A stretch of DNA of 64,000 nucleotides, taken from contig RWJK01001967.1 of NCBI GenBank assembly GCA_004335835.1, positions 114,312 to 178,311 of the forward strand. The letters are read 5' to 3'. This document shows positions 8,132 through 63,871 of the stretch, piece after piece (the first letter of the stretch is position 1; the number at the start of each line of letters is the position of its first letter). The position numbers were made by a program, and so were the translations under genes. Source of the DNA: Scenedesmus sp. ARA3 (Eukaryota; Chlorophyta; Chlorophyceae; Sphaeropleales; Scenedesmaceae). A model generated the notes under the pieces. It saw nothing but the letters and a program-made list of their open reading frames with translations, had not been told where the DNA came from and searched no databases.

Positions 8132-8960
8132 GCGCAGCGCTGGCAGTGCATTGGTGCCCCTGTCCATGATGTCCAGCTTGGTCAGCACACCTGTTGAAGG
8201 TACAGCAGCAGCAGCAGCAGCAGCAGCAGTCTGTCAAACATCACACAAAAGCGGCACCACCAGGTTGCGCAGTGCTCGCAGTGCATTGGTGTCCCTGTCC
8301 ATGATGTCCAGCTTGGTGAGTACATCTGTTTACAGTCAGCAGCAGCAGCAGCAGCAGCAGAGGGTGTTGTCCGCGACCATCAGCTGTGCCATCTGCAGGC
8401 ACATGCTACCCAACCAAGACCACAACACAGCCTTTTGGCTTCAGAGGTCATCAGACCCTATGAATGAAAACTCAAAAACATCTCACCAATGGTGCGCGCG
8501 CCCTCTGCGTCCACCAGCTGCGCCATCTGCAGCGCGTCGCTGTTGGCCAGGTCGGTGTTGGACGCAGACACGGCCAGGATGATGCAGCTGGGCTCACGGA
8601 TGTACTGCAGGTGCAGCCGCAGCAGCGGCGGTGGCGGCAGCAGCAGCGGCAGAGTAGCAAGTACAGCCTTAGCACGGACAGGACTATGCAGCTGGGCCCA
8701 CAGATGTACTGCAGCAACAACAGCAGGGCAAGCAGCAAAAGCAGCAGCAGCAGTAGCAAGTACAGCCTTAGCGCGGCCAGGACGATGCAGCTGGGCCCAC
8801 AGATGTACTGCGGCAGAAAATGGTGGCAGCAGCAGCAGCAGCAGCAGCAGCGGGTGGTGCGTCCTTCACTTCACCATTACAGAAAAAACACGTCGTGCTG
8901 CTCATCATTGATATGCCTGTCAATACGTGCTGCTACAGCTGACAGTCAACGTCACCCCCT

Positions 8961-8997
<37 letters not shown>

Positions 8998-10471
8998 ATA
9001 CTGTCAAACATCCAGGCTTGCTAAACCTTCGCTGGCGATGCCCACCCGTGCTGCACAGCTGCTGGTCGAATGATCATGCCTGCTGCTGCAGCCGCTGGTC
9101 AAACAGGTACCCCTGCTGCAGCAGCTGCAGCAGCTGCTTTTGCTGGTCAAAAGCTGGTCAAAACGCTGCTGCCGCACCTGCAGCACCATCTCACGGATGC
9201 GCTGCTCGATGTTGCTGGGCTGGTCGCCCACAGGCACCTTGGTGATGCCCGGCAGGTCGATCAGCGTCATGGTGCTGCAAGGTGGCAGCACACACAGCGT
9301 GACAATCATTGCTAGTGTGTTGGCAGGATCCAATAGAAGCCACAGTAACTGACTGGGAATGCTGTTGGCCGCAGGCAGCTCATTCCATTCCAGACGCCTG
9401 TGCAAGCACATCAATCACCGCTGCCCACCGCACAACCAAAATCCCTGCGGCACTCCTTGTTTACACCAACAACACTCACAGCACGTGTGGGCTGAAGATC
9501 TTGAGCCAGGTGGGCTTGCCAGAACACAGCATATAATACATGTGCCACCTAAAAACCCACAGCACACGTGCCAACAACGCAGCTCACAGCACGGTTGCCA
9601 CAGAACGCAACTCACAGAACATGAGGGCTGAAGATCTTGAGCCTGATGGGCTTGTCGCTGATGTTCTTGTTGCCGCCTGACACGCGCTCCGTCTCGGACT
9701 GGATCTCCGCACGGATGCGGTCAAAGTCGTAAAACACCTGCAGCAGCACACCAGAGAAGCATGAGACAACTGCCATGCTTGTGTAGCTGTTTGCGCTAAC
9801 CGCCTGCGGAAAATCAGCGGTTGCTGGTGCATAGGGGTTCATCCTGATGTGTAAGACGGTTGCATTGTCATAGGCACTGCGCAGACCCACAGATGGCTGC
9901 CATGCTGACGCAGCATCTCTCCTTCCACCTACAACTAATGTGCTGCGCACCTTGCCAGGAGCATGCAGGAACTCGCCCCACTCAGCGGGCTGGCTGGGTG
10001 CTGCTGCTGTTGCTGCTGCTGCGGGTGTTTTAATTAGCTGCAGCACCAGCGGGCGCCGCGTGCAGATGTCTGGCCCGCGGGGGAGGAAGTCGCGGCCCAC
10101 CTGCAGGCACAACATCAACACATGACGCTCGTGTCAGCACCGTGAAGTAAGTGACAGCGTAACTTACAGCGCCGCATGATGTGGTGTGGTGAGGCATGGC
10201 TAAACAACAGATGGGTGTCCACAGCACTTGATGTTTGCTGCTGGGGAGGTTCGGCTGCTTGCAGCCACCCTTGCATGCAGAGCAAGTGCTGGCTTTGGGA
10301 ACCGTAGTCAGCATGGTGCTGCCAACAAGGCTGTTGCTGCAGCTTGCTGCTGCTGCTGCTGTGCTGCAGCAGAGCCTCCAGCCTGCTGTACTTCTGAACC
10401 ATCTTCTCTACTGCAATACCTCCCTGGCCTTGCTCGGCATAACGTTTTGCACTGCCGTGCTAGACGAGCAC

Positions 10472-10513
<42 letters not shown>

Positions 10514-11458
10514 ACCAGTGCCTCCAGCACGCTGCTCTTGCCGCTGCTCTGGCTGCCCACCACTGCCACCTGCGGCAGGCCCAGCTTCAGCTCCACAGTC
10601 ACCTGCAGGTGATTGCAGCAGAATATGCGGTTACCGGATTTGCAGCAAGCAGCAGATTTGCAGCATGGACGGTCACCAGCAACATGCGCACAGGCCCAGC
10701 TTCAGCTCCACAGTCACCTGCAGGTGATGGCAGCAATATATGATTGCAGCAGCATGCGCACACACATGTTCAGCACGCATGGCAACAAGCAGCACGCGCA
10801 CAGAGCCGGTACGGGTGCAGTGACCATTTCATGTGTGCAGATGGAGTGTTTGGAGGTCCTAGGCAGTGCACAGGCGTGACAGCGCGGTTGCGCACGCTGC
10901 AGTGCAAGATGTGAACGTTGCGAGTAGTGCAAGGGAATGGACTGCAGCAGGCCACTGCAGCGGCTAGCAACCTGCTATCAACTATGATTGCATGATACTT
11001 TAATTATTAAATGTGTGGTGCAGGCTGTGGCATGTGTGGCATGATGCATGCAATCAGCAATTCAGACCGTAGGGAGCAGCAGCGGCGACATACACATGGT
11101 GCACAGTAGCACAGCCAGCAGAGACCATACAGGAGCAGATGTAATGAATCCCCCATGCACATGTGACTGCTGACACTGCAATCAGGCGCAGCAGTTGGCA
11201 CACTGACAGACTCTCCAACCAATGAAACACCCAAATCAACAGGCCCCCAAAGCTGGGCCAAGCGCGCCGCTGCGCCTGCAACTCAAAGTAATCCAAGACT
11301 ATTAAACCATTGCGCTTAGCAGTTGCGTGATTGGGGAGCCTAGTGGCTCGTAGTGTGGACGTTCATGGCGCACTCACCTGGCTGAAGATGTCCTGCAGCT
11401 TGTTGATCACGGGGATCAGCGAATCCCCCAACACATCTTCTTGCTTTGGCTTCGTCAT
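8132..11458 (-). CDS. Dynamin-related GTPase (DRP3/DNM1L type), N-terminal GTPase domain; C-terminus missing at gap
   Basis: Large GTPase of the family that constricts mitochondria and peroxisomes during fission. Minus-strand exons: 11458-11378 (starts MTKPKQED; an in-frame TAG lies 18 nt upstream), 10602-10516, 10100-9951, 9737-9616, 9274-9178, 8604-8487, and then two alternative versions of the next exon, 8325-8247 (7a) and 8190-8132 (7b, cut by the gap). Visible motifs are the switch-free start [12 protein letters not shown]-loop GSQSSGKSS (G1), [11 protein letters not shown] (G2), [14 protein letters not shown] (G3) and [12 protein letters not shown] (G4). All junctions keep frame. The middle domain and GED, about 400 residues, are absent from the window. 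Exon 7a carries Asp in place of Gly in the MDRG(T) motif but continues into RNLVVPLL, as in plant DRP3. Echo copies of exon edges lie in several introns. Confidence 0.9.
8680..8815 (-). repeat. Two echo copies of the 5' edge of dynamin exon 6
   Basis: The segments around 8680-8712 and 8775-8812 repeat, on the minus strand, the acceptor and first codons of exon 6 (CTGCAG|TACATC..GGGCCCAGCTGCAT). They lie in the intron just upstream of the real exon, which starts at 8604. The copies have diverged by several substitutions and run into unrelated sequence after about 35-40 nt. Confidence 0.75.
9490..9540 (-). repeat. Echo copy of the 3' edge of dynamin exon 4
   Basis: The plus-strand motif GGGCTGAAGATCTTGAGCC followed by GGTGGGCTTG recurs here. 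It repeats the end of exon 4 (coding for [10 protein letters not shown] at 9616-9665). It lies in the intron immediately after that exon in the direction of transcription. Confidence 0.7.
10685..10735 (-). repeat. Echo copy of the 5' edge of dynamin exon 2
   Basis: GGCCCAGCTTCAGCTCCACA and the following TCACCTGCAGGTGAT reproduce 10578-10612, the acceptor and first codons (VTVELKLGL) of exon 2. The copy sits about 107 bp upstream in the transcript and is nearly identical over 35 nt or more, so it is a fully formed decoy acceptor. Confidence 0.85.
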
Positions 11459-12571: not shown

Positions 12572-15500
12572 ATGCTCTCACACGTTGCCAAGGCTCGCCA
12601 GGCGCAGAAGCTTGCTGGACTTCTGCAGCAATGTACCAGAGGTCTCGCTCACGCGATGCCATCAGACGTGAGCACTTTGAGCAACAGCATTACCACCCTG
12701 CCCTGGAACTCCCAACTCTCACACCCGTGCTTCCTTCCCGTTGCTTCCTTGAGCGCAGGCTGATACCCCATTGCAGGCAGTGCAGGTAGACTACTCATAC
12801 ACACCGGCTGGCAGGAACCATCTGTTTGTTCCTGGTGAGCTTGGGGATTGGAGGGAGGGGCTCGCGACAAGTCTGGCGAAACGCAATGGCGTTTTTTAGC
12901 GTGCTGATCAATGCCTCGACTTTCGAACAATATATTCAGCACTCGCAGCAGCGCTGGAGTAGCAGTGTTGCACATCCACCTGCATAGGTGGTTACAGCAG
13001 AGCAGCAGGACACCTAGCATGCTGCTGCTGCTGCTCAGCATAGGGATACAACAGCAGCAGCAGAAGCAATGAATGTGTTGCACTGGTCATGATATATACA
13101 TCCCATACACCCAGCGCCGGGAAGGTAGAGACAGCAGCAAAGCTGTATGGCACAGCAGTGGTACCTCATGGTACAACTGCAAACACTACAACCTCAAGCC
13201 AGCAGGGTGGTTCACTGCGTGCCTGCTGTACAGCCTACTGCACTATGCACCTGTATGATTACTGTTACTCCTTTACTTTGCAAGCCACCTATGCATGTTG
13301 GCATGCCACAGCACTGCCTTCATCTTGTGTCGCTGATGTGCCCAGGCAAATCTTCCCACGCGTGTGCCTCACCCACGTGCAAGGATAGCATGCAATTCCT
13401 TGCTGTGCATCCAGCCACTACTCACCTTTCCTGCAAACCGTTGACTGCTTTCCTGCACACCAACAACAATTTTCTGCAGGCCCGGTCAACATCCATGACC
13501 GCGTGCTGCGCGCGATGAATGTGCCGGGCCAGAACCACAGGGACCCCTGGTTCGCTGCCTTCTTCAAAGATGTGTTGGCTGACAGCAAGTACGTTTTCCA
13601 GACGCAGGCAGGCACGCCCTTCATCTTCTCAGGTGCGCGCTGCTGCTAGAGTGCTGCTGTCGCTGCTCTGAATGTGACTGGCAGTCTTCTGCGGGCGTGT
13701 GTATGAGCTCTCCACAGCTCTTGTTGAGCAGAGCAGTGGACATGGCACAGCAGGTGCGTGCTGCCTGCTAGATGCTACTGCAGGTGCTGTGAGCCGTAAT
13801 CTGGCCGGCGCGTGAGCCAAGCAGTGTCCTGCAGCCTTGTTCCTTGGTCAAATGTCAGCTCATGTCTAGTACAGTAGCCGTCACAGAACAAGCTGCAGCG
13901 CAGCCTGCAGCATTGCAAGCAGCGTAAAAAAGAATGGTCAAGCGGCGCCAGTGCCCCTACCATCATGCAGCAACCGACACAACCTTCACAAACTGCTGGC
14001 TCCTGCAGGCACCGGCACTGGCGGCTGGGAGGCAGCGCTGACCAACACGCTGTCGCCCGGGGACAAGATCGTGACCTTCCGCTACGGCCAGTTCAGCCAC
14101 CTGTGGATCGACATGATGCAGCGCATGGGCCTGGACGTGACAGTCATCGACAGGTGCGTGCCTGCAATAAAGATTGCAGCATCTGCTTGTTTGCAGCGCT
14201 GGTTGATGGGTGCGTGCCAGGCAGCAGTTCATGCACAGCTGGCTACTGTGCGGTGTAGGGCTGTTAGCTTTTGTGGCTGCTGGCGTGTTTTGCAGCCTTG
14301 CATTGTGTCCTGTGTATCCTGCATGTTGTGGGGACCACGGAAATGATATGTGACACCTACAACTCACAACAATAGATGCATAGATAACACTGATCTGTGG
14401 GGCGAGGGTGCTGACGCGGCCGTCCAGCAGGACACCTTGGCCAGATACTGACAGTGAATACTTGTTATGTGCATTGTGTGCTGTACACTTGCCGTAGGCC
14501 GTGGGGTGAGGGCGCTGACGAGGCCGTCCTGCAGGACATCCTGGCCATATGTATCAAAGATCCTGACACGGTTAACCTATCATTTGTGTGCTGTGCAAAT
14601 GCTGCACGCCGTGGGGTGAGGGAGCTGACGAGGCCATCCTGCAGGACATCTCGGCCGTAGTAATCTAGAAACTGACACTGGTTGCCTGTCATTTGTGCGT
14701 CGTACAAATGCCGCAGACCGTGGGGTGAGGGCGCTGACGAGGCCATCCTGCAGGACATCCTGGCTAAATGTATCAAAGGTACTGACACTTTTCACCTACC
14801 ATTTGTGTGCTGTACATTTGCCGCAGGCCGTGGGGTGAGGGTGCTGACGAGGCCATCCTGCAGGACATCCTGGCCAAGGACAAGGACAAGAAGATCAAGG
14901 CAGTGGCAGTGGTGCACAACGAGACCACCACAGGTGCGTAGGTTTTGTTGTGTGGCAGCAGCAGCAGGCGTCATCGCTGGCTTCAAGCAGTGGTCGACAC
15001 CGCAGCATGCACAGCTGGCCGTGCACAACGACCAGCACGTGCTTGTCTTTGTCAGCGCAGAAGCAGAAGCAGCAGGCAGCAGCAGTGTTCAAAACAGCAA
15101 ACGTGGAGCAGTAGTACACACTGCTGCCTGCGCAGCTGTAGTGACTTTGTGCGCAACTCGGCTGTGATGTTCAGTGTTTGGCTGAAGCAGCTGCGCCTGC
15201 TTGGCCAGTCCAACAAGCGCCCGGCTGTGTGTGGCTGCTGGCACGGACATGCTAAACATCTTGTCGGAGCACGCTGGTCTGCTGTTGTCTGAACATCCCA
15301 TGTAACTACTCATGCAGGTGTGACAAGTGACATCAAGGGTGTGCGCGCAGCCATGGATGCAGCCAGCCACCCTGCGCTGCTGCTGGTGGACGGTGTCAGC
15401 TCTATCGGTGCGCTGGAGTTCAAGTTTGACGATTGGCGCGTGGACGTGGCAGTGACTGGCAGCCAGAAGGCGCTGTCGCTGCCCACAGGCCTGGCGCTGG

Positions 15501-17524
15501 TGTGCGCGTCAGACAAGGTGCGCTACTGCTGCTGCTGCTACTGTAATGGCATTGCTGCGATTTGACTGCTGGGTTGTTTGCAGTGAGGTCGTTGTTGTGA
15601 CACGGCGGATGCTCAGCAAACAGCGCAGCAAGTTCGCCCTTGAGCAGCTTCAGCAGCAGCCATGCCTGTGCAGGGATAGCAGCGCTTTGCAGCACACCGC
15701 AATGACAGCTCCAGCCTAAACAGCATGCACAGTAGCTGCACGTACATACGTGGTGGGCTAGCTGCTCATGGGGCGGTTGCGACTGTGCTTTTTTGCTGTC
15801 CGTGCAGGCGCTGGACCACATGAAGACCGCCAAGCTGCCGCGCTGCTACTACGACTTCGCGGACCAGCTCAAGACCAACCCGGCAGGTGCGCAGCGCTGT
15901 GCGCAGCCATGTGGGAGGCAGTTGACAGCTTGTATGCAGTGACGGCAGCGTGCACGCAACGCATACCATGCTATGTTTGCAGCAGCAGCAGAAGCAGCAG
16001 CATGGCTACTCTTCGAGCTGACCTGTTGCAACAGCAGCAGCGGGCGAGTGAAAACAGCGATCAGCAAACGCATGGCACTGAGTGGCCACATGCCTTACAT
16101 GACTTTGGCATGGGCGTGTCACCTCTGTGTGTGCTCCTTGCTCCTGCAGGCAGCACGCCCTACACGCCCAGCCTGTCGATGCTGTACGGGCTGAAGGAGT
16201 CCATCGCCATGCTCAAGGCGGAGGGCATGGACAACGTGGTGGCGCGCCACCACAGGCTGGCTGAGGGCACGCGCAAGGCGGTGGAGGGCTGGGGGCTGGA
16301 GCTGCTGTGCGCACACCCCAGGTGGGCTTGAGATGGCTGTCATGCTCTGTGTTGAATTCAGGCGCAAGGCGGTTGAATGTGGGCGCAGGGCAGTCGAGAG
16401 AAGAGAGATGTAGAGCCCTGCAAGCAGCCTAGAGTCATGCTCTGTGTTGAATGTGGGCGCAAGGCGGTAGAGGGCTGGGGGCTGGAGCTGCTATGCGCAC
16501 ACCCCAGGCGGGATGACCGGATGAGCCTTTCCATGAGAGACAGTAAAGTCCTGCAAGCAGAGTATTACTGTCCTGTTTGTCGGGAGTGTCTGGCTTGCTG
16601 GCCTGCGATTGGAGGACTGGGGGCTGGAGCTGCTGTGCGCGCACTGCAGCTGGGCTTGATGTGTCTTTGAGAGAGAGGCTGGCTGCCCTGCAAGCGGACT
16701 GTGACCTTGCTGTGGGTTGGCTGTGATGGGCGGCGGTGCACAGCAGCAGATGGGATGACGGCCGCTGCCGACAGGATGCAAGAGATGCAACAGCAGCAAT
16801 CACGGTTGCTGGACAGCGTACACGATGCGCTCTGAGCTCCGCATCTTTTCCAGCTCTGGTTGGTGCAACTGCCGTCCGTCAACAGCTAAGCATATGCCTG
16901 GCATGCACTTCCAACACTCTCCAGTTGACCCAGTTACAAGCAGCTGTTAACAACTGGCAGTGTGTGCTGCTGTGGTGCTGCTGCAGGTGGCGCAGCGACA
17001 GCCTGACAGTGATCAAGACGCCGCAGGGCATCGACAGCAACAAGATTGTGAAGCACGCGTACAGCCGCTACAACCTGTCCATTGGCATCGGCCTCTCACA
17101 GGTGGGCGGCGCTGCTGGTTGCTGCCGCTGCTGTGGCATTCACTCTGCCAGCATGCTCAAGCAACCTGCAATTTCTCAACCCACTGCAACCACGGCATTA
17201 AGTTACATGCCATGCATTATTTGCCAAAATACTGCATTTACAGTGGTCACTGACATGCAGATGCGGTTTTTTTTTTCTATGTTACAAACATGTTTATTAA
17301 AATGAACTGCTGTGCTACATTCTCACCTGCAGGTCAACGGCAAGGTCTTCCGCATCGGGCACCTGGGCAACATGGACGAGCTGATGATGTGCAGCGCCAT
17401 CAGCGGCGCCGAGATGGCCATGATTGACTCGGGCATGAAGATCAAGCCGGGCAGCGGCATCGGCCCAGCCATCCAGTACTGGCAGGAAACCGCAAAGGTC
17501 ATCCCCACACGCGAGGTGGTCTGA
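12572..17524 (+). CDS. Serine/alanine-glyoxylate aminotransferase (class V PLP enzyme), photorespiratory
   Basis: Transfers an amino group to glyoxylate, giving glycine plus hydroxypyruvate or pyruvate in photorespiration. Exons: 12572-12667, 12786-12834, 13480-13632, 14009-14153, 14827-14933, 15318-15517, 15808-15886, 16150-16321, 16987-17101 and 17333-17524, giving 435 residues in frame. Exon 2 could instead start at 12777, adding AVQ. Diagnostic blocks are PAGRNHLFVPGPVNIHDRV, the TGTGGWEAALTN PLP-phosphate loop, RPWGEGADE, HNETTTGVTSDI and TGSQKALSLPTGLA with the PLP lysine. The leader MLSHVAKARQAQKLAGLLQQ is basic, amphipathic and free of acidic residues, like a mitochondrial presequence. 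The C-terminus TREVV lacks a peroxisomal PTS1, unlike the land-plant enzyme. Mitochondrial location, as reported for Chlamydomonas photorespiration, is therefore inferred. Introns 4 and 8 carry exon-edge copies. Confidence 0.95.
14388..14826 (+). repeat. Four tandem echo copies of the 5' edge of aminotransferase exon 5 (about 110-bp period)
   Basis: Copies of the segment GCCGTGGGGTGAGGGNGCTG through CAGGACATCCTGGCC start at about 14388, 14498, 14608 and 14717, followed by the true exon at 14827. Spacings are 110, 110, 109 and 110 bp. Each unit has about 47 nt of exon sequence plus about 60 nt of intron (ACTGACAC...CATTTGTG..CTGTAC). The base pair before the exon-like part is AG in the copies at 14498 (CGTAG) and 14717 (GCAG) but lost at 14608 (GCAC). 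Two decoys therefore retain an acceptor. Confidence 0.9.
16355..16660 (+). repeat. Echo copies of the 3' edge of aminotransferase exon 8
   Basis: The end of exon 8 (GCGCAAGGCGGTGGAGGGCT, GGGGGCTGGAGCTGCTGTGC, GCACACCCCAG|G) recurs in the intron after it. A short degenerate copy lies at 16361-16395, a near-complete copy at 16452-16508 ending ACCCCAGGCGGG, and a partial one at 16612-16650. In the second copy the donor GT has changed to GC. Confidence 0.85.
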
Positions 17525-33128: not shown

Positions 33129-35223
33129 TGCGCTACCCCTACAGCATCGGCATGTACGTCATCACACCAGATGCCGTGAAGAGCGTGTGCTGGCCCCTCA
33201 ACATGCGCACCTGGCAGGTGGACACAGGCAACAACCAAGCGCACGCGGAGCGGGCGGGCCGCGCGCTGTGGGCTGCACTCAGGTGGGTTGAGGCGTTTGG
33301 TTTTGGGTGCAGCTGTGCTGCTGCACCGCTTTATGTCAGTGGCCAGTGTGTGGGGCTTGGTGCTTGCTGTGCTTGTCATTTTGTAGCTTTTGATGTTTGC
33401 TGGAATAACATCAAGGCCACAGCAGTAGCTGGCAGGTGGACACGGGCAACAACCAGGGTCACGCGGAGCGCGCCGGGCGCGCACTGTGGGCTGCACTCAG
33501 GTGGGCTGTGTATGGTGCTCTTTGTGGGGTGTGCTATGCGAGCTGCCTTCACAAAGGGCTGTGGTTGTGGTTGTAGCTTACGATCTTTGGCCCTTTCAGA
33601 CTTGCCTGATACAAAAGGTGCAGCAGGTTGAGCAAACAAACCTAAGCAACTGATGCCTGAGCGCTGGCGGCTGCTGCGTGCCACCTTGCTGACCGTGGGC
33701 AGCCAGCTGGACTAGCGAGGCAGAAATCGAGACTTACGAAGTGCTGCTGCTGCTGCTGCTGCTGCTGCTGCAGGCCTGAGCGCTGGCGGCTGCTGCGTGC
33801 CACTTGGCTGACCATGGGCAGCCAGCTGAACCGGGTGCAGGAAGACTTTGCACACCTGCACAGCTTGCTGCAGAACATTGGACAAAGCAAAGGCAAGAAG
33901 AGCAGCAGCGGCAGCAGCAGCAGGCTGCAGCAGCATCAGAGCCCCACCAGCAGCAGCGCGCAGAGCAGCTTGGCAACAGCAGCAGCAGCAGCAGCGGCGC
34001 CGGCGGGAGATGACGGCTGTGCAACGGATGCACAGCAGCAACAGCAGCAGCAGCAGCAGGCGCACGGGCCGGCACTTGATGGCTTTGCTAGCATGGAGGA
34101 CTCGACGGCGTACGATTATGCTGCAGCAGCTGTGCAGGTGAGGCCGGAGTGCTGAAATCCCTCGCCCACAATCCCTGCACATCACAGGAAGGTCCTGGTC
34201 GCCTAAACCACGTCTCCTTTTCCCTGTGCTGCACACCTAAACGCCAAGGTCGAGGCTGTGCCGCTGCATGTGAGGACGCCATGCTTACCAGCTCTGTGGC
34301 GCCTGCTTGGACCTGCTGTACCCTGGAAAGGGTTGCTGCACCAAAACCCTGTGCTCCTGTCTCCTGAACCCTGCGCCGCACAGGTTGAGGCCATGCTGCT
34401 GCGCGAGGACGCGATCGCCTGGCACTTCTGCGGCGCCTTTTTGGACCTGCTGTACCCTGGAAGCGTTGCTGCACCTAAACCCTGTGCCCCTGTCTCCTGA
34501 ACCCTGCCCCGCACAGGTCGAGGCCGTGCTGCTGCGCGAGGACGCGATCGCCTACCAGCTCTGCGGCGCCTTTTGGACCTGTTAGATCCAATGAGCATTG
34601 CTGCACCTGAACCCTTTGCACACACCTAAACCACTTGCACCTAAACCCTGCCCCACCCTCCTGCTCCCTGAACCCTGCGCCGCACAGGTCGAGGCCGTGC
34701 TGCTGCGCGAGGACGCGATCTCCTACCAGCTCTGCGGCGCCTTGTTGGGCCAGCTGTCCCTAAACAATATCGCTGCACCTAAACCCTGTGCCCCTGTCTC
34801 CTGAACCCTGTGCCGCACAGGTTGAGGCCGTGCTGCTGCGCGAGGACGCGATCTCCCACCAGCTCTGCGGCGCCTTTTTGGATCTGTTAGATCCAATAAG
34901 CATTGCTGCACCTGAACCCTTTGCACACATTTAAACCACTTGCACCTAAACCCTGCGCCACCCTCCTGCTCTCTGAACCCTGCGCCGCACAGGTCGAGGC
35001 CGTGCTGCTGCGCGAAGACGCGATCTCCTACCAGCTCTGTGGCGCCTTTTTGGATCTGTTAGATCCAATCGAGATCGCAGTGGGCTACGTGTCCAGCTGG
35101 CCTTACCACCCTCAGGCCCTGGCCATGTTTGATGTCATTTTCAAGCTGGGCGAGCCGCCGGAAGCTTTGGATGCGTTGCACATGGCTGAGCTGACAGGCG
35201 GGGCAGCAGCGATGGAGCTGTGA
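29902..35223 (+). CDS. bZIP transcription factor with Gln/Ala-rich regions and an unrecognised C-terminal domain
   Basis: Six exons (29902-30084, 30410-31153, 31556-32815, 33128-33282, 33774-34137, 34993-35223, TGA) give 978 residues, all joins in phase. Residues about 290-350 hold an AT-hook-like KRRRGRP and then a bZIP: NLVYVRRFRER carries the N-x7-R basic signature (Val in place of the usual Ala). After the exon 2/3 junction, leucines at heptad spacing (L..R..L..L..L in NNLESTV...QQLLEEQQQLCVKWEALEQ) form the zipper. Poly-Gln, poly-Ala and acidic stretches flank it, as in activators. The C-terminal part (YPYSIGMYVITPDAV, WQVDTGNNQAHAERAGRALW, PERWRLLRATW, EDAISYQLCGAFLDLLDP, WPYHPQALAMFDVIF) is well ordered but I do not recognise it. 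Targets are unknown. Every intron after exon 2 contains exon-edge echoes. Confidence 0.8.
31430..31500 (+). repeat. Echo of the 5' edge of bZIP exon 3
   Basis: CCTTGCAGGAGATCAACCTG..GAGTCCACCGTTG copies the real acceptor and first codons (CCTTGCAG|GAGAACAACCTGGAGT at 31548-31571) 115 bp upstream. Using this decoy and reading through to the real exon would shift the frame, since 115 is not divisible by 3. Confidence 0.85.
33028..33075 (+). repeat. Echo of the 5' edge of bZIP exon 4
   Basis: CTGCCAGGTGTGCTACCCCT followed by ACAGCATCGGCATTCGCGTC repeats the acceptor and first codons of exon 4 (33121-33160) about 94 bp upstream. Each copy is preceded by its own (CTG)n tract. Confidence 0.9.
33425..33502 (+). 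repeat. Echo of the 3' edge of bZIP exon 4, donor included
   Basis: CTGGCAGGTGGACACGGGCA through GGGCTGCACTCAG|GTGGGC repeats 33210-33288 with about 10% divergence, 217 bp downstream. Part of it keeps an open frame and a perfect donor. Confidence 0.9.
33655..33715 (+). repeat. Echo of the 5' edge of bZIP exon 5
   Basis: GCCTGAGCGCTGGCGGCTGC through GGGCAGCCAGCTGG repeats the first about 55 nt of exon 5 (33774 onwards), 118 bp upstream. Its preceding dinucleotide is not AG (GATGCCTGAG), so it is not a clean acceptor. Confidence 0.85.
34384..34992 (+). repeat. Four echoes of the 5' edge of bZIP exon 6 in a 133+171 bp higher-order array
   Basis: Acceptor plus exon-like copies (GCACAG|GTYGAGGCCRTGCTGCT, then GCGCGAGGACGCGATC) start at 34384, 34517, 34688 and 34821, and the true exon starts at 34993. 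Spacings alternate 133, 171, 133 and 172, so a two-part unit of about 304 bp has itself been duplicated. All four decoys retain CAG acceptors. Between them are CCTGAACCCTG and CCTAAACCCTG runs. A partial fifth copy (exon tail only) precedes the array at about 34296-34345. Confidence 0.9.
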
Positions 35224-35329
35224 GGTGTGTTGCATTGTCAAGCACGCTATTTAAGTGCCAAAACGTGGCCCCTTTGCACAGCACGGCGAGCTACAGGAGG
35301 CTTCAGGGGTGCTGCCTTGCTTTGGGGTG

Positions 35330-45207: not shown

Positions 45208-46831
45208 CTGAGGAAGCCTCACCCAACAGTGCTGCTCGCCGCCGCACCAGGAGCAGCAATAGCACAGGCACGGCAGCAGCAGCAGCAGCAGCGCCAGGGC
45301 ACAAGCGTCAGCGCAAGGCGTATGCGGCTCTGACTGGGCCCCCGAAAGGCCTGCCGGAGAAGCTTGGGGCTGCCCCACTGCGGCTCATCCTGGTGGGTTT
45401 GCCTCTATATACTTTTTGATTGTATATTTGATTGACGTTGAGATGCTGGCAGTGTTGTGGATGGTTGACTCCTGTGCACAACGGCCTGCTTGAGAAGCTT
45501 GGGGCTGCCCCACTGAGGCTCGTTTTGGTGGACTCAGCTGCTATACACTTTTTTATTTTATTTTTATGTTAGGATGTTATTCTGATAGCAACTGGAACGG
45601 CCGAATTTGTGCGGGTAATTGATTGCCCATGCAATGAAGGAGGAACTGGGTACCTGATTCCAACGCGCATGAGCGGTAGATCAGCTCGCTGGGCTTGCGC
45701 CTAAGATAGGTCCGTCCTGTACTTTGGTATTAGTATTGGTATGGGTATCCATGTTGTGAATGGTTGACTCCTGTGAAGACATGGCCTGCTTGAGAAGCTT
45801 GAGAGTACCCCACTGAGCCTCATCCTGGTGGGTTGCCTGCTACCTTGTTGCTGTAACATACGTTCCCGCAAGCGGATCTTGCATCTTGCAACTGTCAACA
45901 CCCAGTACGCTTAACTAAACACATCATCTGTGTGGGTGGCAGCTAGGACACACGTGTGCTGCCTATCTCCATTGTTTCTGCTGCTGCTGCCAATGCTGCT
46001 GCCGCAGATCGGCCACAACCCTAGTGAGCACGCCTGGCATACGGGACACTACTACTCAAACCCCTCCAACCGCATGTGGCGCATCCTGGAGGCCTCAGGT
46101 GATGCGGTTGTTGTTTTGCTACTACCTAGCACTTTTCAGCAATTACTCCATCCACTCCTCAGCGACCATATGTCGCAGATACCGACAGCAGCAACTGACA
46201 ATGATGTTTCTCAGTTGCTGGGAGCTCTGGTGCAAGTTGCACCAACAGCAGACATTATGAGGCATTGCAGTCGTGCTCGTCAAAACCATGCAGGCAATGT
46301 GTTATGCTGTTACATTCTTGCAGGAATAACACCCGCTGGTGTGTCAGGCCCCGAGGCTGATGATGTCATGCCTGCTGCTGTGGGGGTTGGCTTTACTGAC
46401 GTGGGTAGCGGCCAGCCAGGCACCGACAGGTGAGCCGGGGTTCAAGCTTGAGTTTTGGTACTTGTTTTTTACTTGACCGGCATCTCTCAATGAGTCGAGT
46501 GCAGACGGTGTTGTGTGAGCAGGAGTGGCTGTTGCTGGGCCTGCACTGCCAGACATAGGCTTCCAGGGCACCAGTTTAGAAGCAGTAGATGCAACAGCAT
46601 GCGGGCTTGCCATGCATGCCTGCTGCTGTGCGGTTGGGCTTCACTGACGTGGGCAGCGGCCAGCCCGGCACCCACAGGTGAGCAGGGTTTTGAGACTTCT
46701 GTGGGACAATTGGTGCTGACGGATCGGGAAATGAGCCTTGCGCACGCACGGATGGGCGAGTAGCAGTGGCGTATGTTGAACATGTAGCAGTGCCAGGCAT
46801 AAACAGCAGGTTTGTGTAGTGTATGTTATGC

Positions 46832-47439: not shown

Positions 47440-48756
47440 TCTACTTACTTGCTTTTTGCTGTTCAAGCACTTGCACCATCGCACCTTATCAGACTTCAAA
47501 CAAGCACCTGCCTGCTTTTGTGAGAACCCTGCCATAGCATGTACCAGCCATACGCTTGTACGCGCACCGTTTGATGCAACAAGTGTGCACGTTTGCTGTC
47601 AGCGCCGCAATCATAACAACATAGCTGTTGTTGACAGCTCATGTTGTGATCTGCCACACACGCTGCAGACATGCAGCTGCTCAGGCAGCAGCACAAGGGC
47701 ATGTGCGCATGTGGCACGATGTAGTGATCAAAATGACAACCTCTAATTGCCGGGTATAACAGTTTACTTTGAACTCTGCAGAGGCACTACCTGGAGCTGC
47801 TGAACCTTTATGCCCCATCGGCTGGCTCTGTCATGTTCAGATGTTACTTGACCTGTATGTAACACTTGTTACGTCCTTCAACACTGCACAGGCACTACCT
47901 GGAGCTGCTGATTCTGGATGCCTCAGGGCAGCAGCGCAGGGGCAAGGACTGTGTGGCAGCATGTGCTACACAACATTCTGGTCACACTGTGTGATGCAAT
48001 TTGTAACACTGCAGAGGCACTATCTGGAACTTCTGAACCTGGATGCCTCAGGGCAGCAGCGCAGGGGCAATGACCGCGTGGCATCGGCAGCAGTACCCTT
48101 GGGCCCGCAGCCGCCGCAGCAGCTGCCGCCTGGCTGGCCGCTGCCTGCTGACAGGACTGAGGTCTGGGTGCTCACCAGCACTTCAGGTGAGGGAGTGTTA
48201 TTTGGGTGCGTCATGTTGATACTGTATTGCTTTGGGGTGCCCTGCTGGTGGTAACGGCTGTCTGCTGCCTGCTCACCAGATTAAAGTTTGGGTGCTAACC
48301 AGCACGTCAGGTGGAACAGTGTAATATTTTCTGTCAGTTTGTGGGGTGTTTTTGCGCCCTTGCCGCCTGGCTGGCCGCTGCCTGCTGGCAAGACTGAGGT
48401 CTGGGTGCTGACGAGCACTTCAGGTGAGGGTTGAGATCCAAATTTTTTCCCAAGATTGCTCTTGGCTTTTGGGGCCCCTGGCAGCTGGCTGCTGCCTGCT
48501 GCCTGCTGCCTGCTGCCTGCTGACAAGTGTGAGGTTCAACTCCCTGCTGACATCAGACACAGCCCCCTTTAATTAATAGTTCATGATGTTGCTAATCTAC
48601 GTGTCTTGCCTGCCTGCTGCCGCTGCAGGTGCTGCCCCCATGAGCAATGAAGCCAGGGAGGCACCCTACAGGCGAGTAGCACAGCGGCTGGCGGAGCTGC
48701 CCTGGCCACGCAACGACATACAACTGTCCTGCAAGCCTAAGCCTGATCAGCCGTGA
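45009..48756 (+). CDS. G/T(U)-mismatch-specific DNA glycosylase (MUG/TDG family)
   Basis: Base-excision-repair enzyme that removes thymine or uracil opposite guanine. Exons 45009-45392, 46008-46098, 46324-46429, 47082-47173, 47331-47383, 48015-48186 and 48629-48756 (TGA) all join in frame; from 45009 they encode 341 residues. The first part is Ala/Ser/Thr-rich and basic (RRRTRSSNSTG, GHKRQRKAY). The catalytic core begins at LRLIL|IGHNPSEHAWHTGHYYSNPSNRMW, the family's G-I/H-N-P motif with the conserved Asn. It continues through VGFTDVGSGQPGTD, FQRWRAAFYARL, APRLVAFTGK, WVLTSTSG and APYRRVAQRLAELPWPR. The acceptor at 47082 was chosen because it restores both phase and the family sequence (SSLFTAADF). 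The start codon is not settled. Echo copies of exon edges sit in at least four of its introns and after its stop. Confidence 0.88.
45485..45840 (+). repeat. Two echoes of the 3' edge of glycosylase exon 1
   Basis: The exon end GGCCTGCCGGAGAAGCTTGG..GGCTGCCCCACTGCGGCTC..CTGGTGGGTT recurs at 45486-45540 and 45782-45835. Both are diverged, and the flanking GGTTGACTCCTGTG.A..AC.GGCCTGCTTGAGAAGCTTG is also shared between the copies. Donor GT is retained in both. Confidence 0.85.
46605..46685 (+). repeat. Echo of the 3' edge of glycosylase exon 3
   Basis: CATGCCTGCTGCTGTG.GGTTGG..TTCACTGACGTGGGCAGCGG..GGCACCCACAG|GTGAGC repeats 46366-46436 about 250 bp downstream, with the donor preserved. Confidence 0.9.
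46966..47052 (+). repeat. CTG microsatellite, about 29 units, in intron 3 of the glycosylase gene
   Basis: A perfect CTG run ending 30 nt before the acceptor at 47081. It is the longest of many sense-strand CTG tracts placed directly in front of 3' splice sites in this window. Confidence 0.95.
47775..47960 (+). repeat. Two echoes of the 5' edge of glycosylase exon 6
   Basis: AGGCACTACCTGGAGCTGCT at about 47783 and 47890 copies the first codons of exon 6 (RHYLELLN, real start 48015). The second copy extends through GATGCCTCAGGGCAGCAGCG..CAGGGGCAA. The preceding bases are CTGCAG in copy 1 and GCACAG in copy 2, both usable acceptors. Spacings are about 107 and 125 bp. Confidence 0.88.
48240..48430 (+). 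repeat. Two echoes of the 3' edge of glycosylase exon 6
   Basis: Copies of CCGCCTGGCTGGCCGCTGCC..GACTGAGGTCTGGGTGCT.AC.AGCACTTCAG|GTGAGG lie at about 48260-48312 (partial, GTCAGGTGGA) and 48360-48430 (nearly perfect). The real exon edge is at 48130-48190. Confidence 0.88.
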
Positions 48757-48764
48757 TAGCTCAC

Positions 48765-50519: not shown

Positions 50520-50560
50520 GTTAGTAGTATAGTAGCACTTTGAGGGCTCGCTCACGGCCC

Positions 50561-54121: not shown

Positions 54122-54158
<37 letters not shown>

Positions 54159-54166
54159 GGCCTCAA

Positions 54167-54197
<31 letters not shown>

Positions 54198-55080
54198 ACC
54201 ATGCGCAGGTCTGCTCGTACGGCGTGGGTGGTCACGTGAAGCTGCCCGGGCCAGGGCCAAAGCAGCCCAACGTGTACGATTTTGGCACACGCTATGACTT
54301 CATTTTCAACGACCTCAAGTCCAAGGTAGGTCTGTGGTTGGTGGTCACTGCTGAAGACCGAGATTCTTCATCTTGTCTGCGGCACAATGAGCAGGCTTGT
54401 AAGGTCAGTCTACAGCAGCAGCAGCAGCAGCAGCAGCAGGAGGTTTGTATGGGACAACTTCAAAGCTGGGTGAAAATCACTGCAATGATGCATGCGACGT
54501 GCGTTGTGTGCTGTGCTGTGGATTATCTGTACATAACTGCCATCTATGCCGCATTGCCTTGCAGGATGAGGCACTATACACATGCAACGGTCGGCCGACG
54601 ATGCTGCAATGCAAACCTGGCAGTCAAGGCAGCGTTGTTTGAGTACTTGTGTGCTGCTGTTGCTGCTGCATATGCAGGATGAGGCGCTGTACACGCGCAA
54701 CGGCCTGCTCACAATGCTGCAGCGCAACATGGCAGTCAAAGCAGCGCCAGAGAAGTGGCAGTACTGCAGGTGCGAACACTGGCACCTGGCAGCAGTGCGA
54801 GAAATGTGATTCTGCTTGCAGGAAATCTTGCAGGGCAGCTTGCAGGCCAGCTTGCAGGATAGCTCTCAGAGCTGTGTCGTCGCAGGAAAGGCAGCTGAGA
54901 CAATACCACAGCTAGAAGGGTGGGCGCAGCTGCAGGACCACATCACAGTCCACCATGCCAGATTTGCGGTACAACGTTGCCCTGCCTGCGGGGAGAGAAG
55001 AGGTTTGTGTCTTGCAGATGCCATCACAGGTGCGCAGGAGTGTATACCTGTCACAAAAGCTCGATGGCATTTTGTGCTGC

Positions 55081-55143
<63 letters not shown>

Positions 55144-56464
55144 AGGGAGGTGTTTGATGCTGTGGTGTGCTTTGAGGAGAAGGTCATGCAGCAGGTCATT
55201 GAAGGTGGGATCCATCACAACAACCCGCCATGCTTGCATGTCTCCAAAATATTTCAATGCAAGCTCTTTGTCATCAGAACTAGGAGTTGCGCGCATGCGG
55301 CAGACAGCAGAGCCGATACAGAGACGCAGCGGCATGGCGCAGCAGTATGGAATTCTTCAGCTTGTTTTGCAACGTTGTCTGTCTACAGATGCACTGGTGC
55401 ACGCGCGGGCCGCCTTTTTCATTGAAATGAAACGTGTTCCTGCTTGCTGTGCAGACATGGCTGGCAGGCCGCAGATACTCTTGAAGCCTGTGCTGGTCAT
55501 CAACATTGTGAGTGGCATCAAGCTGTGGTAGCGGTTCTGGACGGTTGTGAGAATATGTTTATGCTGTGAGCCTGATTTCACAGTCACAACATGCAGTAGC
55601 TTGTTGTCCTTGCCGGACGATCTGTCTGTATAGAAAGGGCAATGCTCAGCATGCGTAAACCAGCCACATGTGCAGCGACAGCAGAAGGCTGCAGTGCCCT
55701 GTGTTATTCTTGCTACACTGTGGTTCTGTGACCAGGCTGGTCAGGATTGGAGTGCTCCTCTGCATTGCGTACTTGACGCATCACTGTGTTACATTCAGTT
55801 ACATCACCCTGTTATAAAATGTCACATGTTGTTACTTGCTTTCAGGATGTGAAGGACAACCATGAGGAGGCAGCAAAGGTGGCACCACAAACCCTGCAGC
55901 TCTGCCAGATGGTGAGCAGCAGGTGCTGTCGAGCTGGCTCTGTGCGTTGTATGATACTCCCTTGTATGCATCTTCAGGCTGTTTCAGGACAGCAAATGGA
56001 TGGCGCCACACACCCTGCAGCTCTGTCAGATGGTGAGCAGCAGTGCCTGCAAGCCGACAACCTGCTGATTTGTGTTGCAATCTGCAGATTTTGTTGTGTC
56101 TGGCTTGGTTGTCGCTGCTGCTGCTGCTGCAGCTGCTGCTCGATTGAGCTGGTATTGCTCATGGCCAAGTGCTTGCAGAGATTGCCCTTCAAATCTGCAT
56201 TTGCACTATTCGCAAGCATGGCTGGCTGCCGTGGAATCATCCACAGTCGTTGTGACAGCTGTTGTGACAGCAGCAGCACGCCATTCCTATGAGTTTCCCG
56301 CTGTACCCAGTTTATCCGGTGCGCTCATTGCCTTACTCTATCTGCTGCTGCTGCTGCTGCAGCTGGAGGCGGCTGACTCCTGGGAGGGTGCAGTGGATGA
56401 GGTGATGGCTCACTTTGAGCTGGAGCACCAGCGCCGCGCCACCTACACCATCTGCTACTACTGA
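53616..56464 (+). CDS. SSU72: SSU72, RNA polymerase II CTD Ser5/Ser7 phosphatase
   Basis: Removes phosphate from the RNA polymerase II C-terminal repeat during termination and 3'-end processing, as a subunit of the cleavage/polyadenylation machinery. Seven exons (53616-53708, 54209-54325, 54678-54769, 55146-55204, 55455-55507, 55846-55911, 56363-56464, TGA) encode 193 residues, the usual length for SSU72. The protein tyrosine phosphatase-type loop C-ASNQNR-S (CX5R) is at residues 10-17. Other family blocks are [62 protein letters not shown] with the conserved acidic residue, and the closing H.RR.TYTICYY. All phases agree. Introns 2-4 and 7 carry (CTG)n tracts up to the acceptor, and edge echoes lie near exons 3, 6 and 7. 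Confidence 0.97.
54558..54640 (+). repeat. Echo of the 5' edge and body of SSU72 exon 3
   Basis: TTGCAG|GATGAGGCACTATACACATG..CAACGGTC...CAAACCTGGCAGTCAAGGCAGCG copies the first about 70 nt of exon 3 (real start 54678) about 113 bp upstream. It has several changes, including Arg to Cys codons. The acceptor is intact and the frame stays open over this length. Confidence 0.85.
55076..55143 (+). repeat. CTG microsatellite abutting the SSU72 exon 4 acceptor
   Basis: Twenty-two CTG units with a single TTG interruption, running directly into CAG|GGAGGTG at 55145. The repeat itself supplies the pyrimidine-containing region and the AG of the splice site. Confidence 0.9.
55975..56045 (+). repeat. Echo of the 3' edge of SSU72 exon 6
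   Basis: GGCGCCACACACCCTGCAGC..TCTGTCAGATG|GTGAGCAGCAG repeats the end of exon 6 ([10 protein letters not shown], 55880-55925) about 122 bp downstream, donor intact. Confidence 0.9.
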
Positions 56465-56623: not shown

Positions 56624-57001
56624 AGTGGATGAGGTGATGGCTCACTTTGAGCTGGAGCACCAGCGGCGCACCACCTACACCATCTGCTACTACTGAAGCC
56701 CCTCGCCAAGCATTAGCTGGCTGCAATCATGGAGCAGCGCCAGCGCAGCAGCAGCAGCAGCAGCAGCGGCAGCAGCAGCCAACAGCTGCTGCATGCGAGG
56801 AGTCCTGTTTCGTCTGCTGCTGGCACCGCTAGGCAGCCAGGTTTTGCCTGTGGCACACTTTGAGCTGGAGCACCAGCGGCGCGCCACCTACACCATCTGC
56901 TACTACTGAAGCCCAGCTGCAGTTGGTTTTCTCTGTTGTCAGAGGGCGGCACTGCCAGCGCAGTGCGGCGGGGTACCACCTACATGGTCTGCTACTACTG
57001 A
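56624..57001 (+). repeat. Three echoes of the SSU72 C-terminal exon with stop codon
   Basis: GATGAGGTGATGGCTCACTT..GAGCTGGAGCACCAGCGGCG..TACACCATCTGCTACTACTGA recurs, ending at 56695 and 56909, with a short remnant ending at 57001; the real stop ends at 56464. Two copies are almost perfect at the protein level ([16 protein letters not shown]), so only the last about 20-24 residues are repeated. Confidence 0.92.
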
Positions 57002-60209: not shown

Positions 60210-60245
<36 letters not shown>

Positions 60246-61809: not shown

Positions 61810-61904
<95 letters not shown>

Positions 61905-63871
61905 CAGCGGCAGCAGCAGCAGCCCTGCCTGACAATGTGCGCACAGTGTTGTGGACTGCCCACCACCCATTGCTCACATGGCCAGTGTTGCCCCCAGCAG
62001 CTTGTGCGTGTCCCATCTGTTCAGTTGGGCCAGCTTAACATAGTTCCAATCAAATCTGCATCTGTGCAGGCATGCTTGTGCCACTCACATAGCCAGTGCT
62101 GCCCTCAGCAGCGTGTGCGTATCCCATCTGCTGAGTATGGCCAGCCAGAAAGCCAGCAACACCTTGAGAGTCAACTACATCTCAACAGTAGCACTGTTTT
62201 GCACCACTCACATGGCAAGTGTTGCTCCCAGCAGTGTGTGCGTGTCAAATCTGTTGACTATGGCCAGCTGAACATATTTCCCATTGAGACTAAAATAATT
62301 GCAAATTGATCTGCGTCTGTACAGGCATGCTTGTGCCACTCACGTGACCAGTTTTGCTCCCAGCAGTGTGTGCGCGCCGCATCTGTTCAGGATGGCCAGC
62401 TGAACATAGTTCCCGTTGAGACTAAAATAATTGCGAATTGATCTGCGTCTGTACAGGCATGCTTGCACCACTCACATGGCCAGTGTCGCTCCCAGCAGTG
62501 TGTGCGTGTCCCATCGGTTGACTATGGCCAGCCATAAGGCCAACATGCACCATGACTGATTGTTCAAAGCCAAAAGCAAAGAAATTTGTCATCAGCACAG
62601 TGTGTGCACCGTTTCCAGCAGCACAGGTGTGTCCCATCTGTTGACAAAGACCACCCAAAATTACACCTCATGATTTATGAGCAGTTGGACTCACATGGCT
62701 AGTGTCGCTCCCAGCAGTGTGTGCGTGTCCCATCTGTTGACTATGGCCAGCCAGAACGCCACAGGCGCCAGCGAGATCAGCTTGTCGTCGAACCACTCTG
62801 CACGCATCTTCTGGGTGTCTGTGAGCGTAGCAGAGGCTGCCAACACCTGCAGCGCGGCAGTCACAGCCACATGCATTACTGTTCTATTGACTGCTGCCAG
62901 TGTTGGCACAGGACAGCAGCGCTTGCGCAGAATTAACAGGGAGCAAGGGAAATCAGCTTGTCATCGAACCACTCTGCACGCATCTTCTAGGTGTCTGTCA
63001 GCGCAGCGGATGCTGCAAGCACCCGCAGTGAAGAGCACATGCATGTGTCACTAGCATTGCTGGCAAACCAACTGGTGTGCTGCGCAGAGCACCAGCAGGT
63101 GCACTGGGACGGTAGCAGAAGATTGAGGTTCAACCTGTGCATATAAGGTACACGCACAGAGCATGTTACATTATCCGTCCTGTGTGTCACTTGGTGCAGA
63201 GCAGGTTGAGCACATGCCTGTCTATGGCTGCCGCAGCAGTGCTGCAGATTGCTGTGCATGCTGCATTGCAAGCTGCTTCACAAATGTTTATTCAAACAAC
63301 AAAGCAGGATGTCTCTGGTGTGGATCGCTGCAATGGTCTGTGCCCTGCGCTGCGCGCACCTCGTCAGTCTGGTTTCTCATCAGGTTCAGTGTTGCTTGTG
63401 AGGGGCTGCCGCCTTCCTCAGGGTACATTGAAGCAACAGTGTAGGCAGCGCCGCCGTCAGGGCCCAGGGAAAAGCCCTTGGCGTGCCTGATCTGGGGTGT
63501 GATGTGGTGCTGAATGAAGAAGTACCTGCAGCACACAATTTTCATGTCTAGATTGTCATGGGCTAGATTATCATGTCTAGAGCGTCTCTTCTGTTGCCGG
63601 CAGCGGCTGCCACTCGATTTGGTTACGCAGCTGCATGCGCACGTGATGCTGCTGCTGCAGCTGATGTCCGGCAAGCTGCAAGGTTCAAGTGCAGCTGCCA
63701 TGCAACTCATGTAACTCACCCCAGCTCGTTTGTCTCCAGCAGCGGCTGCCACTTTGTTGGGTTGTGCAGCGTGAAGGCATCGTTGGAGGGGATGAACAGG
63801 TCAGGCCCATAGTCGCTGTAGTTGGCACGGTTGAATGCGTGCTCTGCAGAACCATCACGGTTCAGGCCATC
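59811..63871 (-). CDS. Vanadium-haloperoxidase / PAP2-like protein (chloroperoxidase-type fold), 5' incomplete
   Basis: Minus-strand exons 63871-63720, 63525-63360, 62846-62695, 61631-61576, 61341-61275, 60777-60710 and 60190-59811 join in phase for 346 residues plus stop. Family landmarks in order: DGLNRDG..YSDYGPD, LHNPTKWQPLLE, YFFIQHHITPQ, LTDTQKMRAEWFDDKL, YDATIVSWREKLRHN, VRPVSLVRHFYG, GTQDIKGSQWNSYI, EYPSGTSG and GLSRLHAGVHF. This order matches algal and bacterial vanadium-dependent haloperoxidase-like proteins. In active enzymes the EYPSGH motif supplies a His next to the vanadate/phosphate; here it is Thr (PSGT), although the later Arg and His (SRLHAGVHF) are kept. The exon 60190 start was chosen over an inner acceptor at 60157 because it restores EYPSG. 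The N-terminus lies beyond a CAG-rich stretch at the window end. Activity and substrate are uncertain. Confidence 0.82.
60320..60520 (-). repeat. Two echoes of the 5' edge of the haloperoxidase last exon
   Basis: GAACTCGCCGTAGGCTGCAC at about 60316 and a diverged version at about 60465 repeat, on the minus strand, the segment coding for VCAAYGEFMRRFL (real copy near 60154). Spacings are about 171 and 146 bp, upstream in the transcript. The first has an in-frame TGA after EYSS. The second stays open as YPDPSSVCAAYGVFMQRFL. Confidence 0.88.
61798..61923 (+). repeat. Interrupted CAG array with regular TAG units
   Basis: A 120-nt CAG run broken by single TAG triplets at irregular multiples, in an intron of the minus-strand haloperoxidase-like gene (so CTG/CTA on the sense strand). 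It is the longest interrupted array in the window. Confidence 0.9.
61973..62535 (-). repeat. Five echoes of the 3' edge of haloperoxidase exon 3 (about 110-132 bp period)
   Basis: On the plus strand the motif CTCACATGGCCAGTGTNGCT..CCCAGCAG.GTGTGCGTGTC..CATCTGTTGACTATGGCCAGC starts at about 61973, 62084, 62207, 62339 and 62471; the true exon edge starts at 62690. On the minus strand this is the codons for LAIVNRWDTHTLLGATLA plus the GTGAG donor, repeated downstream of the exon. Confidence 0.9.
62945..63030 (-). repeat. Echo of the 5' edge of haloperoxidase exon 3, with stop
   Basis: AATCAGCTTGTCATCGAACC..ACTCTGCACGCATCTTCTAG..GTGTCTGTCAGCGCAGC repeats the exon's first half (VLAASATLTDTQKMRAEWFDDKL, 62846 downwards) about 172 bp upstream in the transcript. 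The CAG (Gln) codon has become TAG, so inclusion would truncate the protein. Confidence 0.9.

Follow-up and report, generated by a model that had tools for sequence, protein, structure and literature searches.

Diverged copies of exon edges in the introns of a scenedesmacean green alga: local tandem duplication across splice junctions and likely recopying from exons

How do introns come to carry diverged copies of the edges of the exons that flank them, are such copies spliced in, and why do they end where they do? These questions are raised by a 64,000-nucleotide stretch of the genome of the green alga Scenedesmus sp. ARA3 (contig RWJK01001967.1, positions 114,312 to 178,311; hereafter, the window, that is, this whole stretch), in which pieces of exon, together with the adjoining splice site, recur close to the exon. 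Judged from the letters, these copies, which we call echoes, look like small local tandem duplications. The explanation that we favor, with a probability of about 0.6, combines tandem duplications that straddle exon-intron junctions, echoes that are silent in the two genes that were checked, and likely gene conversion from the exon to its echo. Two features go beyond an earlier, sequence-only reading of this DNA, namely, that similarity stops abruptly at the splice signal and that edge-containing duplications are in excess over purely non-coding ones.

Exon-edge echoes and their frequency

In addition to the window, we analyzed ~80 kb around kinesin exons, six arbitrary 10-kb tiles and six replicate tiles, one of which contains 942 N. 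Repeat rows were counted over a total of 264 kb, and independent duplication loci over the 204 kb of the window, the kinesin loci and the first six tiles. Exons were annotated with a self-trained exon-intron hidden Markov model (HMM), which was seeded with kinesin exons placed by Pfam homology and yielded the splice consensus CAG|GTGMG for donors and TGCAG|G for acceptors; G occupies position -4 of the acceptor in 86% of the self-trained models. Because some echoes were themselves called exons by the HMM (for example, 33429-33500 and 46657-46677), exon-length rules were applied. Edges of exons shorter than 70 nt and pairs with more than 40% simple repeat were left out, as were 13 of the 50 kinesin introns, whose splice sites scored weakly, and 47 of the 97 kinesin exon pairs, for which DNA was missing or the junction was unusable.

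Among ten protein pieces of the window that were searched against Pfam, support was obtained for an amine oxidoreductase (which we take to be phytoene-desaturase-like), dynamin, a class-V aminotransferase, a beta-helix protein, Ssu72 and a haloperoxidase-like protein; the bZIP-like, OPR-like and glycosylase-like pieces had no Pfam match, and another piece had a single match, below threshold. The name of the glycosylase-like gene is based on motifs, and "bZIP-like" is the name given earlier to the gene matched by P0241, a protein of Tetradesmus obliquus (OEZ85_002096), itself a scenedesmacean green alga. P0241 matches five window exons at 97-100%, and P0002, from Scenedesmus sp. NREL 46B-D3, matches the window aminotransferase at 95%. 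Of these two matches, which indicate the organism, the first singles out T. obliquus. The aminotransferase model also aligns nearly end to end with the serine-glyoxylate aminotransferase 6pk1.

Repeats less than 1 kb apart comprise 166 direct and 6 inverted rows across all samples (window, 80:3; kinesin loci, 16:0; tiles, 38:0; replicate tiles, 32:3), where rows are not independent events; self-comparison of the window alone yields 76 direct and 2 inverted repeats. A search around 633 model edges, from which repeat-rich ones were excluded, found 190 copies less than 1 kb away on the same strand, compared with 7 on the opposite strand of the same neighborhoods, and control edges placed in other neighborhoods produced 9 matches in 1125. 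For the kinesin introns, which are placed by homology, a copy in the gene's own intron was found at 3 of 74 edges, against 3 of 2556 for foreign introns and 0 of 74 for reverse-complement controls. Chance is excluded as the source of the edge copies. Most copies within the adjacent intron (50 of 56) extend across the junction.

A diverged copy on the predicted side is present at 28 of 110 window edges, in agreement with the earlier count of more than 20 junctions (these edges belong to exons of at least 70 nt, with a few repeat-rich edges counted though unsearched), at 15 of 130 edges in the six tiles and at 8 of 264 in the kinesin loci. Echoes thus accompany 3% of the exon edges in the kinesin loci and 11-25% of those in the window and the first six tiles. 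Duplication loci of any kind occur in 10 of the 12 tiles, and edge-containing loci in 6 of the 12 (three of the six first tiles and three of the six replicate tiles). The share of sequence inside duplication loci is 21% for the window, 11% for the first tiles, 9% for the replicate tiles and 3% for the kinesin loci. Given the lower echo rates elsewhere, the window is a rich example rather than a typical one. Even within it, the assertion that nearly every gene is affected does not hold, given that neither the phytoene-desaturase-like gene nor the interval from 16.7 to 25.3 kb contains a repeat above the threshold.

Units that straddle junctions

The duplications form 64 independent loci, 33 in the window, 20 in the tiles and 11 in the kinesin loci. 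The unit measures 92-148 bp in 44 of these, 203-286 bp in 12 and less than 92 bp in three, and 13 of the 15 units in the replicate tiles fall between 86 and 164 bp. The pile-up at 92-148 bp also characterizes most purely non-coding loci; the first set shows a gap in unit size from 66 to 92, and units of 86 and 91 are present in the replicate. The block of a second copy is often found at a distance of one or two units, and the space between may hold a decayed copy. The donor-type blocks, of 29-121 nt, come from one side of an exon, with exceptions such as 35330-35474, where the block spans the entire predicted exon.

The earlier proposal of local tandem duplication, with units that extend across the junction, is supported by the residual similarity beyond the blocks. 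This similarity exceeded 95% of the null on the intron side of 7 of 26 short-block donors, 12 of 22 long-block acceptors, 2 of 13 short-block acceptors and 4 of 9 long-block donors, compared with 1, 1, 1 and 2, respectively, on the exon side. The residual is thus mainly intronic, which fits a unit that begins in the exon and runs into the intron. A homologous spacer (z of at least 4) is present in 42 of 71 exon-echo pairs, compared with 9 of 298 unrelated spacers; most of the donor blocks, however, stop near +6. Pairs with less than 80% identity were left out of the flank, spacer, substitution and block-end comparisons.

The same geometry accounts for the placement of the copies. A straddling duplication puts the extra copy downstream of a donor or upstream of an acceptor while the original edge stays in use, and no further rule is needed. 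Without filtering, the predicted side holds 131 copies and the opposite side 59; 24 of the former and 26 of the latter are themselves predicted edges. After the removal of such copies and of exons shorter than 70 nt, 44 edges follow the rule and 11 do not, several of the 11 being short exons, array members or repeat-rich stretches. The copying of stop-codon ends beyond the gene is confirmed for SSU72, with matches of 70/72 and 60/62 nt and a shorter copy at 88%. By contrast, the view that introns largely grow in this way was overstated, with 14.3% of the intron bases located within duplication loci.

Two further ideas on the origin of the duplications and their consequences were rejected. Introns with duplications are not longer than others, with HMM medians of 213.5 and 229.5, where echoes called exons split some introns. 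Nor do CAG/CTG arrays appear to be a trigger: 11 of the 64 loci overlap an array of at least six units, against 13.1 expected, and the 110 such arrays in the 204-kb sample show no association with duplications. In several arrays (L036 8221-9089, L030 744-1282, window 34378-35078 and L038 2866-3842), the spacers alternate between types, as if two-unit blocks had been duplicated later.

Duplications that include a junction are over-represented. An exon edge is contained in 50 of 63 loci, with one exon-only locus set aside, and in 11 of 14 in the replicate. Random placement of the same unit lengths, recounted under stricter exon rules, yields an expected share of 39%, which rises to 45-47% after simulated decay and detection, with constraint assumed and ages uniform; against 45%, the excess is significant in both the first set (p = 2.5e-8) and the replicate (p = 0.011). 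Among loci with at least 90% identity, 14 of 19 contain an edge. In this count, loci 25737 and 56390 were kept as non-coding although, by inspection, they resemble edge echoes. By hand reading of the three protein-supported genes, all 11 of their duplication loci reach a coding edge; these include the SSU72 stop-codon locus, which the count had placed in the non-coding class. Only one of the 64 loci in the first sample is confined to an exon, against 11% expected, which suggests selective removal of exon-only duplications in this sample.

The end of similarity at the splice signal

The similarity between exon and echo is lost 5-6 nt past most donors, with the exon part 83-98% identical. When 19 donor edges are each compared with their best echo, identity reaches 0.88 before the junction and 0.82 within the splice hexamer (null, 0.66), and then drops to 0.52 at +7..+12 and 0.35 at +13..+18. 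Over +7..+18, the 16 edges whose donor is GTNNG have an identity of 0.36, compared with ~0.25 at unrelated anchors. The three edges without GTNNG may be model errors, 35197 being no donor according to P0241. At least 8 of 12 positions match at 4 of 19 donor edges (+7..+18) and at 13 of 21 acceptor edges (-18..-7), two of these in CTG repeats. The donor block ends no more than 16 nt from the junction at 14 of the 19 edges (74%), against 15% in a neutral simulation with equal rates, a misfit on which neutral decay alone at equal rates was rejected. An early reading, in which the copying of a block stops at the splice site, was softened in view of the intron-side residual and the spacer homology. 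The far copy of the SSU72 coding end shows a similar pattern at the stop codon, being 97% identical with a 3' flank at the null level (z 1.2) and an upstream flank at z 3.7; the 3' flank of the nearer copy reaches z 6.7.

Two other patterns bear on the fate of the two halves of a unit. First, the 42 homologous spacers observed among the 71 pairs compare with 58-64 expected in simulations with spacer/block rate ratios of 2.7 and 2. Second, the echoes of an array have fewer derived changes in common in their blocks (shared, 12; private, 49) than in their spacers (shared, 114; private, 201; p = 0.012, from eight hand-listed arrays). In addition, close pairs of differences within blocks are slightly in excess (p = 0.024) in a tract test, a weak one, that was limited to ungapped pairs with at least two differences.

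These observations suggest the following scenario. Duplications would arise when staggered breaks are filled in and their ends joined, or in some comparable way; selection would remove those located wholly within exons, and those that straddle a junction would be tolerated because the original splice sites stay in place. The intron half would then erode in both copies, and the exon half of the echo would occasionally be overwritten from the conserved exon by local gene conversion. Such conversion would explain the donor block ends, the equal echo-echo divergence described below and the deficit of shared changes in blocks; the edge excess would then reflect persistence, given that recopying keeps old edge duplications visible, so that edge loci look over-represented. 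A bolder version, which we put forward tentatively as less probable than not, holds that exon edges are standing templates, with local conversion renewing the exon-derived part of each intronic echo as far as the splice signal extends. If so, intron DNA in this alga would contain spare exon edges that are renewable and splice-ready and that decay unlike the rest of the intron.

The main rival, which appears less probable than our explanation but deserves serious consideration, invokes the same duplications without conversion: introns would be more liable to indels and substitutions, the exon copy would be under constraint, and exon-derived sequence would simply erode more slowly. In exon-echo pairs with a spacer z of at least 15, divergence is 0.055 in the block and 0.148 in the spacer, and between echoes there are 4 gap events in 2598 nt of blocks but 176 in 3002 nt of spacers. 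Slower erosion is harder to reconcile with the echo-echo pairs that have the best spacers (z of at least 15), where substitution is equal in blocks (0.104) and spacers (0.106), so that no large intrinsic rate difference is seen in that bin (spacer/block ratios in the lower bins are 1.9-2.7), or with blocks having fewer shared derived changes than spacers.

Several points weigh against conversion. The equality just mentioned is what neutral decay would produce, in a bin that was selected by spacer match and is therefore biased. An intron rate raised 2-3 fold, with 0.35 indels per substitution, generates the observed block ends, the simulated share near the junction being 64-74%, and a spacer evolving 4-fold faster predicts 46 homologous spacers, close to the 42 observed. 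Acceptor blocks end less sharply, within 16 nt in 13 of 35 pairs. Many of the shared spacer changes come from two poorly aligned arrays, without which the counts, by hand and without a significance test, are 8:37 in blocks and 55:132 in spacers. A search for conversion tracts based on the longest identical run was negative (p = 0.31). The depletion of exon-only loci is not reproduced in the replicate (1 of 15, against 10% expected). Finally, the exon annotation comes from our own HMM, and matched proteins back only a few genes. Conversion from exon to echo is accordingly best described as likely but unproven, judging by sequence comparison.

Splicing of the echoes and comparison with known systems

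For two genes, a spliced protein is at hand. P0001 (444 residues; its "lgn" source we take to be assemblies of public reads) derives from contigs of at most 2473 nt and matches the AGXT-like gene at 12572-17521, with one residue different inside the exons; given the lengths of the contig and the gene, its open reading frame (ORF) can fit only in spliced form. Four 5'-edge and two 3'-edge echoes of this gene are missing from P0001. P0121 (193 residues, contigs of at most 2738 nt) matches SSU72, with a coding span of 53616-56464 and one residue different, and the echoes are likewise absent. The echoes thus appear to be unused in these two genes; both proteins use the original edges only, and no new intron made from duplicated sites was found in either gene. 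P0241, which may be a gene prediction, also skips the echo at 33429 and the array at 34.4-34.9 kb.

The presence of decoy splice sites was correctly noted, with GT retained in 31 of 34 echoes and AG in 31 of 35. It is improbable, however, that selection maintains the echoes as functional splicing decoys or as alternative ends of exons, because this retention is about that expected from block divergence (0.85) and the echoes are skipped in the spliced proteins of the two genes. Third codon positions do hold 164 of the 298 exon-echo differences and 7 of the 8 in the pair 33211/33429, and the private changes of echoes are distributed 35:31:53 over the codon positions (17 hand-listed arrays; p = 0.019 against base composition). 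Yet 66 of these 119 private changes fall in first and second positions, and the lean towards the third may represent old synonymous states of the exon. Echoes as coding exons were rejected on the same counts, which, despite this mild lean, are mostly not coding-like. The pair 33211-33288 and 33429-33506, in which both copies are open, is a candidate for a once or still coding copy, though P0241 skips the echo. An assembly or haplotype artefact, which the N run adjoining a duplication (8082-8131, 50 N; a second run, of 9 N, is at 44064-44072) might bring to mind, is largely refuted and highly improbable, because the copies are diverged (median identity 86%, that is, a 14% median difference) and hence not simple assembly duplicates, duplication loci recur in 10 of the 12 tiles elsewhere in the assembly, edge-containing in 6, and the exons agree with those of an independent T. 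obliquus protein.

The closest precedent found is the potato RdRp gene, where a tandem duplication crosses an intron-exon boundary and another duplication, of 83 bp, lies in the first intron (Ma, Lan and Niu 2016, PMC4974935). The potato copy created a new intron that is spliced according to RNA-seq, and a single gene is involved (PMC4974935), whereas the algal copies are skipped in the two tested genes and affect numerous exon edges in several genes. Tandem duplication has been proposed as a route of intron gain and, in one case, demonstrated experimentally (PMC3443670; see also Gao and Lynch 2009 and Hellsten 2011, via PMC3443670 and PMC4974935). In that route, as in the alga, local intragenic duplication provides extra splice sites (PMC3443670), but in the alga no new intron results in the tested genes, and the units include existing splice sites rather than a pair derived from exon sequence.

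As a source of the duplications, repair of staggered breaks is plausible: in mammalian cells, fill-in and end joining yield small tandem duplications that are head-to-tail and local, like the algal ones (Schimmel 2021, PMC8355091). The insertions there are shorter than 100 bp (PMC8355091), whereas most algal units, known here from sequence alone, are 92-148 bp long. Tandem duplication of mutually exclusive exons involves a whole exon with both splice sites, whereas the algal donor blocks are one-sided, with exceptions such as 35330-35474. Insertion of introners or transposons would leave dispersed copies; a 701-bp array stretch, the one unit searched against the whole genome (an 87-Mb assembly of 1567 contigs), matched its own place only, twice.

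Among the matches listed by searches of the open-licence PMC literature, no paper presents numerous silent exon-edge copies as a genome-wide feature, which is not proof of absence; a single junction-crossing case, in potato, is in print (PMC4974935). Straddling duplication in the literature that we found amounts to single cases of intron gain, and in this alga it is common enough to be studied as a standing feature of the genome. The exon half and the intron half of one event can be compared side by side, which bears on whether exons rewrite nearby introns. Echoes also bear on why decoy splice sites are tolerated and on how raw material for alternative exons arises, and they can mislead gene finders, our own HMM included.

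The principal edges and echoes of the window are collected in Table 1.

Table 1. Exon edges of the window and their echoes
Feature	Position	Strand	Support or remark
Aminotransferase (AGXT-like) exon, real 5' edge with last 6 intron nt	14821..14877	+	exon 14825-14935 equals P0001 at 37/37 residues
Echo array of AGXT-like 5' edge, preceding intron	14397..14767	+	copies near 14398, 14492, 14602, 14711; P0001 tblastn pieces
Aminotransferase exon, real 3' edge with donor	16271..16327	+	P0001 match
Echo 1 of aminotransferase 3' edge, following intron	16457..16513	+	96% over exon part; GT changed to GC
Echo 2 of aminotransferase 3' edge	16610..16655	+	90%; GT changed to CT
Dynamin exon, real 3' edge	9610..9654	-	Pfam PF00350 on gene model
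Echo of dynamin 3' edge	9474..9518	-	87%
Dynamin exon, real 5' edge	10558..10608	-	Pfam PF00350 on gene model
Echo of dynamin 5' edge, preceding intron	10673..10723	-	84%
bZIP-like gene exon, real 3' edge	33211..33288	+	P0241 (OEZ85_002096); no Pfam match
Echo of bZIP-like 3' edge	33429..33506	+	89%; skipped in P0241; 7/8 differences at third codon positions
bZIP-like gene, later exon, real 5' edge	34987..35078	+	P0241
Four echoes of bZIP-like 34987 5' edge	34378..34897	+	starts 34378, 34511, 34682, 34815; alternating spacer types
Glycosylase-like gene exon, 3' edge (model)	46363..46435	+	HMM; no Pfam match
Echo of glycosylase-like 3' edge	46611..46683	+	87%
Predicted exon, 3' edge	48124..48192	+	model
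Echoes of 48124 3' edge	48256..48429	+	80% (decayed) and 94%, about one and two units downstream
SSU72 real 3' coding end with stop codon	56396..56467	+	P0121 match
SSU72 coding-end copy 1, beyond stop	56628..56699	+	70/72
SSU72 coding-end copy 2	56851..56912	+	60/62
SSU72 exon, real 5' edge	54673..54746	+	P0121 match
Echo of SSU72 5' edge	54560..54634	+	self-comparison
Haloperoxidase-like exon, real 3' edge with donor	62689..62770	-	Pfam PF22778 on model
Five echoes of haloperoxidase-like 3' edge, following intron	61972..62551	-	four at 80% or more
Echo of haloperoxidase-like 5' edge (real edge 62761-62852)	62937..63028	-	84%

Two other repeats of the window are worth recording. At the end of the gene matched by P0241, positions 35077-35688 form an array of 2.4 copies of a 255-bp unit, in which copies 1 and 2 are open in frame. 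Two minus-strand ORFs located ~42 kb apart, 7569-8240 and 50006-50551, have clearly similar translations and apparently belong to a dispersed repeat family.

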